A stretch of DNA of 20,590 nt, taken from positions 1 to 20,590 of the IMG/VR virus record IMGVR_UViG_3300021519_000093, one strand, 5' to 3'. Positions 1,139 to 19,122 of the stretch are shown here, one piece after another (positions within the stretch are counted from its first letter, which is position 1; each line of letters starts with the position of its first letter). Below the pieces are notes generated by a model. The model had not been told where the DNA came from. It did not search any database and was given only the letters and a program-made list of their open reading frames with translations. A program made the position numbers and the translations under genes. Source of the stretch: a virus.

Positions 1139-1735
1139 ATGGAAAATATAAGAATTGTAAAAAACTTAGTAAGCCCATCTGATGCAACTCGTATTATTGA
1201 ATATACCAATAGAAACCTTGGCTCATTCCATAAGAGCAGATTCTACAATAGATATCAATTAATCTTTGGTTTTGAAGATGGATATTTTAATGATAAAGCC
1301 AAACCTTTAATTAATGGTTTAGAAGAGATTACTGAATTATCTAAAGATATTGTAAACAAAACAAAACTTACACTTTCAGATCAGTTTAATGATAAAGAGG
1401 ATATACTTTTGTCTGGTTTTTGGCTTGCTAAACAGACAGCAGGTGGAGGAGTTAAACTACATCATGACCACGATGGAGGACTAAATACTCACTTTTGTTA
1501 CAGCGCAGTCCTTTATTTAAATACTTTGTCAGATAGTGGAAGACTTGATTTTCCAGAAATAGGAATGTCTGTTAGTCCAGAGGTTGGTGACTTAGTGGTG
1601 TGGCCTTCTGGAATAAAAGAACTATCTCATGAGGTAAAAACTATTAATGAAGATAGGCACAGCATTCCTATGTGGTTTACTAAAGATAAAAACTTTGAAC
1701 TTGACTTTGCGGGGAACGAAAAGACTTCATCGTAA
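1139..1735 (+). CDS. Fe(II)/2-oxoglutarate-dependent oxygenase (prolyl-4-hydroxylase-like fold)
   Basis: This 198-residue protein has the iron triad of the 2OG oxygenase fold. HHDHD at 108-112 holds the HxD motif, the distal His is H164 in ELSHEV, and R173 (EDRHSIPMWF) is placed to bind 2-oxoglutarate. GDLVVWPSG before H164 and SAVLYLN before that are the usual beta strands. Related phage proteins are annotated as prolyl-4-hydroxylase-like. The substrate is unknown, and could be a host or phage protein or a nucleic acid. It has a leaderless-type start. Its last nine bases overlap the opposed zinc-ribbon gene at 1727, and it ends in a 12-base repeat (1729-1740). Confidence 0.85.
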   Translation: MENIRIVKNLVSPSDATRIIEYTNRNLGSFHKSRFYNRYQLIFGFEDGYFNDKAKPLINGLEEITELSKDIVNKTKLTLSDQFNDKEDILLSGFWLAKQTAGGGVKLHHDHDGGLNTHFCYSAVLYLNTLSDSGRLDFPEIGMSVSPEVGDLVVWPSGIKELSHEVKTINEDRHSIPMWFTKDKNFELDFAGNEKTSS

Positions 1736-2312: not shown

Positions 2313-2435
2313 CTATTCTATCACATTAGGGTTTGTCATGTCATCATCCATAGCACCACAATTAGAACAGGTTACTTGGCCATCAAGGTCTAGTTGATAG
2401 TCACATCCATATTTAGTACACATTGCATCGCTCAT
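2313..2435 (-). CDS. Zinc-ribbon microprotein, 40 aa
   Basis: ATG at 2435 shares bases with the TAA of the Fe-S carrier gene (TAATG), and TAG is at 2313-2315. Cysteines at residues 6, 11, 23 and 26 (the last pair as CSNCG) could form one zinc site. The C-terminus is acidic. Coupling to the A-type carrier suggests joint expression and perhaps a joint role, but no function can be assigned. Confidence 0.6.
   Translation of the reverse strand: MSDAMCTKYGCDYQLDLDGQVTCSNCGAMDDDMTNPNVIE
2315..2344 (-). promoter_or_regulatory. Predicted leaderless promoter for the 2120-2308 gene
   Basis: Minus strand ATGACA, 18 bases, TAGAAT, six bases, ATG at 2308. It lies inside the end of the upstream gene. Confidence 0.45.
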
Positions 2436-2764
2436 TAGTGGAAACTATCCCCACAAGCGCATGAGCCTTGTGCGTTAGGGTTATCTATCGTAAAGCCTTG
2501 CTTCTCTATTGTATCCACAAAATCTAAGGTTGAGCCATTTAAGTATGGATCTGACATTCTATCTAATCTAAGATCAAAGCCTTCAAATTTATATATGACA
2601 TCGCCTTCTTTTTCTTCATAGTCAAAGTAGGTTTGATATCTAAGTCCTGAGCATCCTCCAGGTTGAACAGATATGCGTAGGAATTGAGGTCGTCCAGGTG
2701 TGGTTATCTGAGATTCTTTAATTAGTTCGGCAACTTTTTTGATTGCATCATCGCTTAGTATCAT
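2435..2764 (-). CDS. A-type iron-sulfur carrier protein (IscA/ErpA/SufA family)
   Basis: This 109-residue protein has the full family signature: GGCSG with C38 and the C-terminal SCACGDSF with C102 and C104, the three cysteines that hold the cluster or iron. The length matches bacterial ErpA/IscA (about 107-118). A-type carriers receive [2Fe-2S] or [4Fe-4S] clusters and pass them to apo-enzymes in the cytoplasm. A phage copy would help mature Fe-S proteins during infection. Possible clients in this window are the CDGSH fusion and the cysteine-rich GP88 protein. It has one of the best promoters here (TTGACA, 17, TATGAT) with the ATG six bases on. The next gene starts on its stop codon. Confidence 0.9.
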   Translation of the reverse strand: MILSDDAIKKVAELIKESQITTPGRPQFLRISVQPGGCSGLRYQTYFDYEEKEGDVIYKFEGFDLRLDRMSDPYLNGSTLDFVDTIEKQGFTIDNPNAQGSCACGDSFH

Positions 2765-3760: not shown

Positions 3761-4264
3761 TTATAGAGCCTTTAATGCCATAAGGAGAATACCCATGCGA
3801 GGTCCTTGTCCCCATACCTCATGCCTAATCTCATTGGATAAGAAAAGGATATCCCCAGGATTTAGGACAATTTCTTCTTCCCCACCTAATCTCCAAAATG
3901 ATTGACCAAGCATTTGAAGATAGGCTGCATCGTGGACATCTCTGTGAGGACTGACTACCCCATTGTCTAAAGATATGACTGGACCATCAACATGCCATAT
4001 ACCCTCACAGTTACAGATACCGCTTTGCCAGTCATCGTAGTATCGGCAGTCATCGTAATACTGTGAGCCATGGTCTTTATTTATCTTTTCAAAGAAAGGT
4101 TTGAGGTCTGGAAGGTCATCAAATAATCTACGGTTCTTTATCTTAAACCATAGGGTGTTAGATCGTTGTCCTTCTGCATTTTTATATAGGAGAGTCAGTG
4201 CCTGCTCCCAATTGGTGTTGATGAGGAAGTAATCTCTTATGAGTTTGTGTCTGTCTATAGGCAT
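3761..4264 (-). CDS. Fe(II)/2-oxoglutarate oxygenase or cupin-type dioxygenase
   Basis: 167 residues. GIWHVDGPV (H91, D93) and SPHRDVHD (H107, D109) both offer an HxD iron motif. NPGDILFLSNEIRHEV supplies the distal His (H148) and R156 follows. The PGDILF turn is typical of the double-stranded beta-helix shared by cupins and 2OG oxygenases. It sits directly behind the Asp/Asn hydroxylase-type gene, so two oxygenases lie in tandem. It has its own -10 (TATAAT, 4271-4276) at the end of that gene. Substrate unknown; CNC near residue 84 is an unexplained extra. Confidence 0.7.
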   Translation of the reverse strand: MPIDRHKLIRDYFLINTNWEQALTLLYKNAEGQRSNTLWFKIKNRRLFDDLPDLKPFFEKINKDHGSQYYDDCRYYDDWQSGICNCEGIWHVDGPVISLDNGVVSPHRDVHDAAYLQMLGQSFWRLGGEEEIVLNPGDILFLSNEIRHEVWGQGPRMGILLMALKAL

Positions 4265-4270
4265 GGTTTA

Positions 4271-4276
4271 ATTATA
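4271..4276 (-). promoter_or_regulatory. Predicted leaderless promoter for the 3761-4264 gene
   Basis: Minus strand TATAAT, TAAACC, ATG at 4264: six bases. It overlaps the stop of the upstream gene. Confidence 0.5.
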
Positions 4277-4733
4277 TATAATCTTTACTTAGATCTACCA
4301 ATAAATGAATCCTGTGAGTGGTTCCATTATTTAAAACCTTGTGCCATTTTTTATAATCAAACTCCCAGCACTGGCCAACCTTCATATTTATTTGACTATC
4401 CCCGCAATAAAATATAACATCTTCATTTGTTGTAATAGGTATATGAAACCTTCTTAGGTCATTAACCGCATCAGAGTGCTCTCTAATATCTTCTTGTGCA
4501 GGCAACAGAGTTATAGAGCGTTGGACTAACTTACCCCCCATTATTTTAACTAAGTCTTCTACGATAGGGTCTATCAATAGATCTAGCGAAGGGCTATACT
4601 TATGGTTGAGGCTTTTATAGTTAGGTGCGTTATGTACATCTATGTCTGGGTCTTTATCCCAAAGACTGGGATTGTTATCTAAAAAATTAATTATGGGTTT
4701 AACATCATAGTTAGTTATTAGATCAAAGTCCAT
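4272..4733 (-). CDS. Aspartyl/asparaginyl beta-hydroxylase-type dioxygenase
   Basis: 153 residues with the signature of the Asp/Asn hydroxylase family: REHSDAV (H86, D88), then RRFHIPITTN, then CWEFD, the distal H131 (WHKVLNNG) and R141 in the HRIHLLVDL strand. The order matches the family core. Bacterial members are often about 180-300 residues, so this is a compact form. The protein would hydroxylate a residue or related metabolite using O2 and 2-oxoglutarate in the cytoplasm. The start ATG at 4733 lies six bases after TATACT. DnaA-type boxes at 4755 and 4767 lie across the spacer and -35 region of this promoter. Confidence 0.85.
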   Translation of the reverse strand: MDFDLITNYDVKPIINFLDNNPSLWDKDPDIDVHNAPNYKSLNHKYSPSLDLLIDPIVEDLVKIMGGKLVQRSITLLPAQEDIREHSDAVNDLRRFHIPITTNEDVIFYCGDSQINMKVGQCWEFDYKKWHKVLNNGTTHRIHLLVDLSKDYI

Positions 4734-8689: not shown

Positions 8690-8698
8690 GCGATTTTG

Positions 8699-8772
8699 CG
8701 AAGTGTACGGGACTTGAACCCGTGATCTCTACCGTGACAGGGTAGCGCATTAACCAACTATGCTAACACTCC
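8699..8772 (-). tRNA. tRNA-Asp (anticodon GTC)
   Basis: A full cloverleaf reads on the minus strand. The acceptor stem GGAGTGT pairs with ACACTTC (one G-T). The D arm GCAT/ATGC has the loop AGTTGGTTA. The anticodon arm CTACC-CTGTCAC-GGTAG carries GTC in the loop. The T arm ACGGG-TTCAAGT-CCCGT follows. The discriminator base is G, as expected for tRNA-Asp. CCA is not encoded, so the host must add it. It lies 37 bases after the DUF932 stop and four bases after a conserved hairpin, so it is probably cut from the same transcript. Confidence 0.92.
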
Positions 8773-17320: not shown

Positions 17321-17352
17321 TAGTGCGTCTGTTATGGGCGCACTATTTTTTT
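17321..17352 (+). terminator. Intrinsic terminator of the 16813 operon
   Basis: TAGTGCG (17321-17327) and CGCACTA (17339-17345) form a perfect 7-base stem followed by seven T (17346-17352). Confidence 0.85.
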
Positions 17353-17445
17353 GTGTGTATTTTCTGTATAGTATGTATCATACATCTAGACAAAATATTC
17401 AGATTTTAGGCTATTTGAGTTTTACAAATTTTTTCAGAAAGGTGA

Positions 17446-17451
17446 TATAAT
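17446..17451 (+). promoter_or_regulatory. Leaderless promoter for the 17458 gene (-10 TATAAT)
   Basis: Perfect TATAAT preceded by TGA, then AGATCT and ATG at 17458: six bases. It starts the three-gene unit that ends with the CDGSH fusion. A palindrome ATGTAT-C-ATACAT lies near 17380. Confidence 0.65.
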
Positions 17452-17457
17452 AGATCT

Positions 17458-17547
17458 ATGACCGAATCCACATATACAGGGTGCTGTGCAGGATGTACCT
17501 GTCCAGATCCTCATTCATCCAAGCCACCAGTAGCCGAAGAGGAATAA
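17458..17547 (+). CDS. Cysteine-rich microprotein, 29 aa
   Basis: 29 residues. TGCCAGCTCPDPHSS packs four cysteines and one histidine into 11 positions; the rest is Pro/Glu-rich. It may bind a metal or an Fe-S cluster. Its leaderless start and the position at the head of the unit leading to the CDGSH-dioxygenase suggest a linked function, but this is inference. Confidence 0.6.
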   Translation: MTESTYTGCCAGCTCPDPHSSKPPVAEEE

Positions 17548-17548
17548 A

Positions 17549-17830
17549 TTGGCAATCCTAGACAATCTAGAAAATTCCTGGGATGAAAATTTCTTATTCG
17601 AATCTAAACCTATGCCAGTAACAGACAGTATGGGAAGAGACGTATTTTGGGAAGACATTGGTAGAGAACAAGAAGAAAAATTAACTCCAGAACAAGCACA
17701 AGCAATTTTGCTATTCCAGATTGAGCAAAAAATAAGGTTTGCTATTGCAAAACAAGTTGAGAATAAATTTCACGGTAAGTATCATAACGAATCACATGAG
17801 ATAGCCCAATTCATAAGAAACATAGAGTAG
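17549..17830 (+). CDS. Hypothetical protein, 93 aa
   Basis: Start is TTG 17549, two bases after the previous stop, with AGAGGA upstream; no ATG or GTG fits better. 93 residues: LDNLENSWDENFLFESKPM, then VFWEDIGREQEEKLTPEQAQ, then a helical basic end. It lies directly before the CDGSH fusion gene. Unknown family. Confidence 0.65.
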   Translation: MAILDNLENSWDENFLFESKPMPVTDSMGRDVFWEDIGREQEEKLTPEQAQAILLFQIEQKIRFAIAKQVENKFHGKYHNESHEIAQFIRNIE

Positions 17831-17834
17831 TCTA

Positions 17835-18533
17835 ATGAGTGACATTGGTCATGGTGGTGGTTTTAAAAGATCAGAAAAAACACAATGCATTTGTGGCTAT
17901 TCTGCTAACTATCCATTTTGCGATAACACTCACTTAAAGATAAATGAAAAATTTAAAAAAGATTGGGATTATAAAATACGAACATATCCTAAGCATCCAG
18001 AACTTCAAGAAGTAATTCCTGGAATATACATCATTAGTGATTTTATATCTCAAGATCAAGTAAAAGAAATTATGGATTTCTTACAAAAAAATAAAGACAA
18101 TACTTTGAAGTTAGAAGAACAAAATCCAAATTCAAAAATGATGGATAATAGACTAATTGATATTGTTGGCAAAGGTCTTAGCATTGAAGATATTGATTTT
18201 GATCCAATCTTTGATGGTTTGTATAGCGTTCTATCAATTAAAAATATTATGAAATATGAAATTGGAGAAGAATTTCCACCACACCATGATTCTGGCGAGT
18301 ATTGTCCAATACAATCCGATTGGGGTTTGGTTTTATATATCAATGACAATTTTGAAGGTGGAGAACTCTACTATCCAGAAAAGAACATAACATACGTTCC
18401 AAAATCAGGGGACTTAGTAATTCATGGCGCGAGTGAAGAATTTGCTCATGGCACAACTCCAATTATAAGCGGAACAAAGTATGTAGCAACGTCTTTTGCA
18501 TTTTTATTTCCTAGAAAAGAAAGAGAATCTTAA
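17835..18533 (+). CDS. CDGSH iron-sulfur domain fused to Fe(II)/2-oxoglutarate oxygenase
   Basis: 232 residues. CICGYSANYPFCDNTH at 18-33 follows the CDGSH pattern C-x-C-x2-S-x3-P-x-C-D-x2-H, with C18, C20, C29 and H33 as ligands of a [2Fe-2S] cluster. The usual Gly after CD is Asn. From residue 58 a prolyl-4-hydroxylase-like dioxygenase follows. HHD (H150, D152) and the distal H205 form the iron site. The EGGELYYP strand is at 174-181. K215 in HGTTPIISGTKY sits where P4H-type enzymes use Lys to hold 2-oxoglutarate. CDGSH domains carry redox-active clusters, so the cluster might feed electrons to, or sense redox for, the oxygenase. Length and motifs are complete. It converges with a related oxygenase. 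Confidence 0.85.
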   Translation: MSDIGHGGGFKRSEKTQCICGYSANYPFCDNTHLKINEKFKKDWDYKIRTYPKHPELQEVIPGIYIISDFISQDQVKEIMDFLQKNKDNTLKLEEQNPNSKMMDNRLIDIVGKGLSIEDIDFDPIFDGLYSVLSIKNIMKYEIGEEFPPHHDSGEYCPIQSDWGLVLYINDNFEGGELYYPEKNITYVPKSGDLVIHGASEEFAHGTTPIISGTKYVATSFAFLFPRKERES

Positions 18534-18543
18534 TTTTATAATT

Positions 18544-19122
18544 TTAGTAATTAGATCCATCGTGTAGTTCTACATCACCAAAGATACTATGGTTTAATAA
18601 AACGGGGGAGTCAGCAGAACCCCTAACAAACGATGTAGAAAAATACCTAGAACCATCCCCAATAAGCCTTTTTGGTCCATGTAGGATATTCCCACCGTGT
18701 AAGACTAACGATCTGGCTTTTGGTTTGTGAACAATGCCAAGTTCGGGGTATTCAATCTCTCCGCCTTCGTAGTCATCATTATAATATATAACAATCCCAT
18801 AGCGGATATAATAATCTAAATCTTTAAGCCAATAATCCCTATGCAGGCGCATTGGTTCGTTATCAAGATATCTCTGTAAAGCAATATTACCTATATCTAA
18901 AGCACTGGAAAAAAGGTTTTTTACATTTTGATCTATCTCATCAAAAATTTCTGGCAACTTACCCCATTTTTGTTTTCCATAAAAAAAGGTTTCTTTTTGT
19001 TCTTCATGCCACCAATCAGATTCTTCTAAAGACTTAGAATACTCTAAAACCTGGTTTGCTTTTTCTATAGTTACAAAATTTTCAATTTCATAAATGTCGG
19101 GGGATAGTCTATTGACCTTCAT
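18544..19122 (-). CDS. Fe(II)/2-oxoglutarate oxygenase (P4H-like)
   Basis: 192 residues. MRLHRDYW (H94, D96), EGGEIEYPELG (119-129), ILHGPKRL (H148) and R159 in the GSRYFSTSF strand form a complete iron and 2-oxoglutarate site. The EGGE-YPE strand and the HG turn match the fusion protein at 17835, ten bases away on the other strand, so they are probably related. Here the 2-oxoglutarate ligand is Arg, in place of the Lys of the fusion. ATG 19122 overlaps the upstream stop by 14 bases. It lacks the CDGSH part. Confidence 0.85.
   Translation of the reverse strand: MKVNRLSPDIYEIENFVTIEKANQVLEYSKSLEESDWWHEEQKETFFYGKQKWGKLPEIFDEIDQNVKNLFSSALDIGNIALQRYLDNEPMRLHRDYWLKDLDYYIRYGIVIYYNDDYEGGEIEYPELGIVHKPKARSLVLHGGNILHGPKRLIGDGSRYFSTSFVRGSADSPVLLNHSIFGDVELHDGSNY

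Follow-up and report, generated by a model that had tools for sequence, protein, structure and literature searches.

Genomes of uncultivated phages couple a short CDGSH motif with 2-oxoglutarate (2OG) oxygenases, a pairing that is strongly supported by our sequence comparisons. We studied a 20,590-base IMG/VR fragment of an aquatic phage (the window), in which one plus-strand gene (17835..18533; ATG start, 232 aa) was identified from its ORF, Pfam matches and orthologues as a CDGSH-2OG oxygenase fusion. As far as we found, the CDGSH-oxygenase pairing and the pattern of one module per oxygenase array are new; each domain type was already known. We tentatively suggest that the module may be a dedicated phage iron-sulfur helper, present once per genome, either free or fused to one of several P4H/JmjC-type enzymes, which would sustain the activity of about ten 2OG oxygenases in the absence of ascorbate. 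We regard this as a real possibility rather than a probable outcome, and below we discuss the alternatives against which it was weighed.

The fusion gene and its surroundings

The translated 17835–18533 frame begins with MSDIGHGGGFKRSEKTQCICGYSANYPFCDNTH, and the CDGSH motif occupies residues 16–33 (17880..17933, plus strand). The motif residues are C18-x-C20-x2-S23-x3-P27-x-C29-D30-N31-T32-H33, with the ligand spacing C-x-C-x8-C-x3-H (C18, C20, C29, H33); these ligands were invariant in both orthologues, L001 and L002. The zf-CDGSH profile (PF09360) matched residues 16–33 of the window protein with E = 6.9e-6 and 26.7 bits, compared with a curated cut-off of 29.5 bits, and the match lay above the cut-off in 30/43 related records. 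Residues S23, P27, D30 and T32 agree with the published CISD consensus positions S/T7, P11, D14 and S/T/A16. In contrast, consensus G15 is replaced by Asn (N31), and thus the set of conserved CISD residues is incomplete; the same position is G, N or E in the further fusion families. The residue preceding C18 is Gln, whereas it is hydrophobic in the CISD consensus. The window protein contains no GP or SP (the P motif, GP-hydrophobic-x-hydrophobic), and an N-strand with hydrophobic residue 1 is missing from its module. Judged by its sequence, the module falls short of a full CISD domain, having neither Gly15 nor the N-strand or P motif, and we infer from the same motif that it would bind a cluster of the [2Fe-2S] kind.

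Farther along the frame lies a P4H-like double-stranded beta-helix (DSBH) core with H150, D152, H205 and K215 (18246..18497, plus strand), located through PF13640, AF2 and Foldseek. The 2OG-FeII_Oxy_3 profile (PF13640) matched residues 138–221 with E = 3.3e-8 and 34.8 bits, above the 27-bit cut-off, and the PHROG match of the fusion protein was the 2OG oxygenase phrog_61 (2e-18). By sequence, the best solved relative was B. anthracis P4H (1.5e-6); the solved relatives also included CDGSH proteins, which matched more weakly. In a 48-sequence alignment, H150, D152, G175, G176 and H205 were invariant, and position 215 was R in 33 sequences and K in 15. AF2 gave the P4H-type core of the window protein a pLDDT above 90. 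Foldseek’s best matches to this core were again B. anthracis P4H (5hv0/3itq, E = 5e-10), with a TM of only about 0.5–0.6 that was due to the uncertain remaining parts of the model. Sequence and structure prediction agree that the oxygenase part is of the P4H-like Fe(II)/2OG type with a DSBH fold. Because the CDGSH stretch had a pLDDT below 50 in both AF2 models (residues 1–28 in the window protein; residues 241–272 in L035, which also has a confident core), no statement on docking is possible, and the cluster-to-iron distance was dropped. A first-pass annotation, made from the letters of this DNA, had described a complete CDGSH motif and a P4H-like oxygenase in one ORF, and the coordinates, Pfam matches, ligands and orthologues agree with that description.

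The elements leading to the fusion gene are, from 5' to 3', a terminator-like hairpin, a promoter-like block, a 29-aa micro-ORF and a 93-aa gene, all on the plus strand. The hairpin (17321..17345) stands at the end of the preceding unit, and the L001 alignment has a similar hairpin plus a T run. The promoter-like block, ACAAAATATTCAGATT ... TTTTTCAGA ... TATAAT (17390..17451), was recognized by conservation with L001 and L002 alone and was not listed by the consensus promoter scan. The 93-aa gene (17549..17830; TTG start) stops 4 bp upstream of the fusion gene and is kept in both orthologous genomes, shortened in L002; it had no Pfam or PHROG match. The Cys-rich micro-ORF, MTESTYTGCCAGCTCPDPHSSKPPVAEEE (17458..17547), lies in the apparent transcription unit of the fusion and is tied to it by proximity only. 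It belongs to a family of 26–40 aa with the pattern CCxxCxCx(D/N)PHxS, usually ending ...SKP. A pattern scan matched this family in 36 viral contigs, most copies being Met-started; members of the family are the window copy, L001 413–499, L002 6720–6833 and L314–L348, and in L348 the pattern is doubled inside one frame. A copy occurs near the fusion in 3/3 fusion genomes, and the product, from its sequence, is possibly a metal-binding peptide.

The 20.6-kb window contains five oxygenase-type genes. Convergent with the fusion is a second P4H-like 2OG oxygenase without CDGSH (18544..19122, minus strand; PF13640 weak at 0.0066, phrog_2297 at 3.4e-7), whose product matched the oxygenase part of the fusion with E = 1.4e-14. 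A third P4H-like 2OG oxygenase lies at 1139..1735 (plus strand; PF13640, 3.6e-8), and Pfam matches identified an adjacent pair on the minus strand, a JmjC_2/cupin-like ORF (3761–4264) and an Asp/Asn beta-hydroxylase-like ORF (4272–4733). A tRNA-Asp (gtc) gene lies at 8698–8772 (minus strand). The window also encodes an A-type Fe-S carrier of the HesB/IscA family (2435–2764, minus strand; PF01521, 7.7e-15). We rejected it as a part of the system, as it was found in 0/49 related records; random records had it in 0/43. The host of the window phage is likely actinobacterial, because a GP88-like window gene resembles Mycobacterium phage proteins (about 54% identity).

Pairing of CDGSH modules and oxygenases across viral genomes

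By the standard that the first-pass annotation set itself, its reading would have fallen if all homologues had lacked the fusion. Searches of other viral genomes instead recovered it, whole, in two more IMG/VR genomes (L001 and L002, 80–81% identity), and CDGSH fusions occurred in seven families overall. Across the window fusion and its orthologues, dN/dS was about 0.16 for the CDGSH stretch and 0.05–0.10 for the oxygenase. In fam0, the family with a C-terminal fusion, search patterns confined to the oxygenase part retrieved full-length relatives of which 39/39 had all four ligands, and the non-ligand residues S/T7, P11 and D14 were also kept in 39/39. We concluded that the fusion is not due to chance, because of the orthologues, the low dN/dS, and the presence of the motif in all 39 oxygenase-retrieved relatives.

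Two motif scans of IMG/VR viral contigs gave at least 119 stretches in the first and 95 in the second. Among the matches listed, 40 unique motif-bearing ORFs exceeded 180 aa and fell into seven families, all of them 2OG/JmjC-type oxygenases; in these counts related contigs appear repeatedly, the motif pattern itself fixes the residues sought, and some families were possibly missed. Also among the matches listed, the motif was N-terminal in six families and C-terminal in one (fam0), and five of the seven families matched PF13640. In families 1–3 the motif begins no more than a few residues after the start codon, and fam4 (L041/L132) matched JmjC_2. Family fam0 (L035) had no significant Pfam oxygenase match of its own; it aligned to the window family at 2.6e-13, with H105, D107, H187 and R197 invariant. 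Among the matches listed, just one other noteworthy kind of fusion lacked an oxygenase: a phage protein with a short WYL_2 SH3-like domain and a C-terminal CDGSH (L028, 9125–9490; L039, 814–1149).

The same partners occur both split and fused. Some phages carry a free CDGSH ORF of ~40 aa inside tandem oxygenase arrays. In family 1, the fused form occurs in L030, L099, L113 and others, and the split form in L053, L023, L156, L166, L167 and L170; in these split loci the oxygenase frame is overlapped at its start by a CDGSH frame of 41 codons. A free CDGSH ORF precedes a family 0 oxygenase in L059, L071 and L077, the order is reversed in L141 (oxygenase 30 bp ahead of the free CDGSH ORF), and L035-type genes have the motif at the oxygenase C-terminus. 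In a tree built from 72 representative oxygenases, which includes several long rows and does not distinguish gains from losses, six changes were required to explain the fused state, and well-supported branches forced at least five of them. Further origins, different in kind and beyond the changes on this tree, are those of the JmjC family and of the family with the C-terminal motif.

We compared these loci with controls. Among the matches listed, 70/119 CDGSH loci had an oxygenase match: 34 were fused, and the others were 36 of 85 unfused loci. The unfused fraction (36/85) contrasts with 1/102 random viral loci obtained with a random 14-base pattern (Fisher p = 7e-14, uncorrected for relatedness and base composition). 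A search with an unfused family-1 oxygenase returned 80 loci, with CDGSH fused in 31, free in 23 and none in the stretch in 26; among the loci of at least 9 kb, more than one CDGSH was seen in 0/62, and none in the stretch read in 20/62.

One module typically accompanied many oxygenases. Exactly one CDGSH was present in 75 of the 77 CDGSH-bearing loci with at least four oxygenases, and it occupied at least six different positions, either free or on families 0, 1, 2, 3 or 4. Whole records carried CDGSH in 41/43 and exactly one copy in 35/43; the two without CDGSH were G089 and G090. The number of PF13640 oxygenases per genome was 7–14 in 12/12 related records counted. The L001 genome (G044) has 10 and the L002 genome (G045) has 9, with one CDGSH module each; this module sits kilobases away from the main oxygenase array and is still oxygenase-fused. 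Tandem arrays of 4–9 divergent 2OG oxygenase genes were seen in L071, L128, L163, L030 and similar loci, and in G044–G092. Some arrays adjoin DUF6065, tail-fiber (Peptidase_S74, collagen-like), laminin-G, fn3 or class II ribonucleotide reductase genes.

Isolate phages yielded no CDGSH-oxygenase fusion, the searches with the short motif being insensitive; they carry distant oxygenases without the module, the best matches spanning residues 39–221 or less at about 27% identity. A cellular contig search found no relative of the fusion, and across 84,980 cellular genomes this form of the motif turned up in 13 stretches, none with oxygenases of these families. The fused family was matched in 0/296 bacterial genomes (a search with no positive control) and in 3/398 of a second bacterial set, all over the oxygenase part only. 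A cellular origin of the fusion was set aside, no cellular relative having emerged from the contig and bacterial-genome searches. Open-licence papers included none joining CDGSH, 2OG oxygenases and phages. Within the isolate-phage and open-licence literature searches, the earlier remark that no phage enzyme of this architecture had been described still holds.

Possible roles of the module

The explanation that we rank first, although we stop short of calling it probable, is that one minimal [2Fe-2S] module would reduce the iron of phage oxygenases as a substitute for ascorbate, acting in cis and on several enzymes in trans. The CDGSH module would bind a [2Fe-2S] cluster, host flavin or thiol reductants would reduce the cluster, and the module would hand electrons to the mononuclear iron of phage oxygenases or otherwise keep that iron reduced. 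Without a reductant, uncoupled turnover would leave the oxygenases trapped in the Fe(III) state. Bacteria are generally without ascorbate, and the module would take its place. One module would serve its own oxygenase in cis and several others in trans; several are probably served because there is usually one module with 7–14 oxygenases, that module being either free in the array or attached to varying enzymes. FMNH2 can donate electrons to mitoNEET, which relays them to O2 or ubiquinone (PMC9490426), and a prolyl hydroxylase of this type has a turnover under 10% without ascorbate (PMC7864055). We favored the reductant role because of the repeated coupling, combined with the electron transfer by mitoNEET and the possibly strong ascorbate dependence of a P4H-type enzyme.

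The first-pass annotation had proposed that the cluster reduces, or senses redox for, the adjacent iron center, giving a self-supporting or redox-gated hydroxylase. A redox mechanism appears plausible and is favored by the repeated fusion, the split and fused pairs, and the single module per array. That is, the redox part of the idea survives, but ‘self-supporting’ is probably too narrow, because the orthologue phages have 9–10 oxygenases and one CDGSH module. Counted against our explanation are the CDGSH-free records G089 and G090, the 20 longer loci (of 62) with no CDGSH in the stretch read and, in the predicted protein, the missing N-strand and P motif. The association through fusion fits equally well with iron delivery, sensing or targeting.

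The targets of the oxygenases would be phage virion or tail proteins, or host molecules, a substrate assignment that is weakly supported. The L001 and L002 fusions are each followed, about 2.2 kb downstream, by collagen-like genes (PF01391), and the oxygenase array of L163 adjoins tail-fiber genes. Collagen-like genes were present in 9/70 CDGSH-plus-oxygenase loci versus 0/49 and 0/102, the loci being short and related. This is suggestive but weak evidence for collagen-like tail proteins as the hydroxylation substrate.

It seems unlikely that the module is instead an iron or cluster donor, whose labile cluster would give Fe(II) to new oxygenases, allowing fast loading of some ten enzymes in iron-poor water. 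NEET clusters are reported to be labile (PMC6006223), a single module stands against about ten iron enzymes per genome, and donation agrees with a module acting in trans. However, two irons per module would be poor stoichiometry for bulk loading, and there was no conserved Fe-S trafficking partner, the A-type carrier of the window being absent from all 49 related records. We are similarly doubtful that the Cys3His motif, built on Zn2+ or a cluster, plays a structural or targeting part as a small module which gathers oxygenases or recruits substrate. The 17-residue motif is nearly everything the module has, with no N-strand or P motif; a few fusions carry the WYL_2 SH3-like domain in place of an oxygenase; and the published core motif offers a dimerization surface. 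Against this, the cluster-fold residues S/T7, P11 and D14 persist in all 39 C-terminal fusions, and the partners are almost exclusively iron oxygenases. A redox, O2 or NO switch, in which the state of the cluster gates the oxygenase, is quite unlikely: when reduced, the mitoNEET cluster binds NO, which stops its redox cycling (PMC9490426), and the ligands are under tight selection, but a gate would be expected on one enzyme, whereas this module shifts among oxygenases and is often free. Lastly, we consider it most improbable that a drifting CDGSH gene joined its neighbors by chance in oxygenase-rich phages, with no functional link; an oxygenase is the likeliest neighbor in an array, but fusions occur at both ends and with JmjC and P4H types alike, they are under strong purifying selection, the modules of G044 and G045 are oxygenase-fused far from the main array, and non-oxygenase fusions were rare among the scanned ORFs.

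If the preferred reductant role is true, phages would possess a built-in or shared 2OG oxygenase reductase, of a kind that we did not find described in cells or viruses. The module would then replace ascorbate with a gene product and would be, to our knowledge, the smallest cluster binder of the NEET type. Few accessory genes of aquatic phages are commoner than those for 2OG oxygenases. Both the roles of these oxygenases and the upkeep of reduced iron in ascorbate-free bacteria could be addressed through this small partner.

Comparison with known systems

The phage module shares with CISD/NEET types 1–7 the motif C-x-C-x2-(S/T)-x3-P-x-C-D-x-(S/T/A)-H. Solved CISD structures all have an N-strand and a GP-hydrophobic P motif, whereas the phage module is without either. 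The seven published CISD types include fusions with a glutamate synthase domain and DUF1271 (types 5 and 7) but none with a 2OG oxygenase. The oxygenase part resembles P4H-like enzymes (B. anthracis P4H, 5hv0/3itq; PBCV-1 vCPH, 5c5t) in the DSBH, the HxD...H residues and the basic 2OG residue. Unlike the phage fusion, the matched chains of the solved P4H relatives found are without a CDGSH motif. 2OG oxygenases are frequent phage genes (PMC11561400), and those of cyanophages and pelagiphages (phrog_61, phrog_2297) belong to the same superfamily, but the isolates are without CDGSH. A phage flavodoxin is reported to supply electrons for an oxygenase-type reaction with a cytochrome P450 partner (PMC9405906). 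The flavodoxin is a separate protein with no fusion, but it is, like the module proposed here, an electron carrier that the phage itself would supply.
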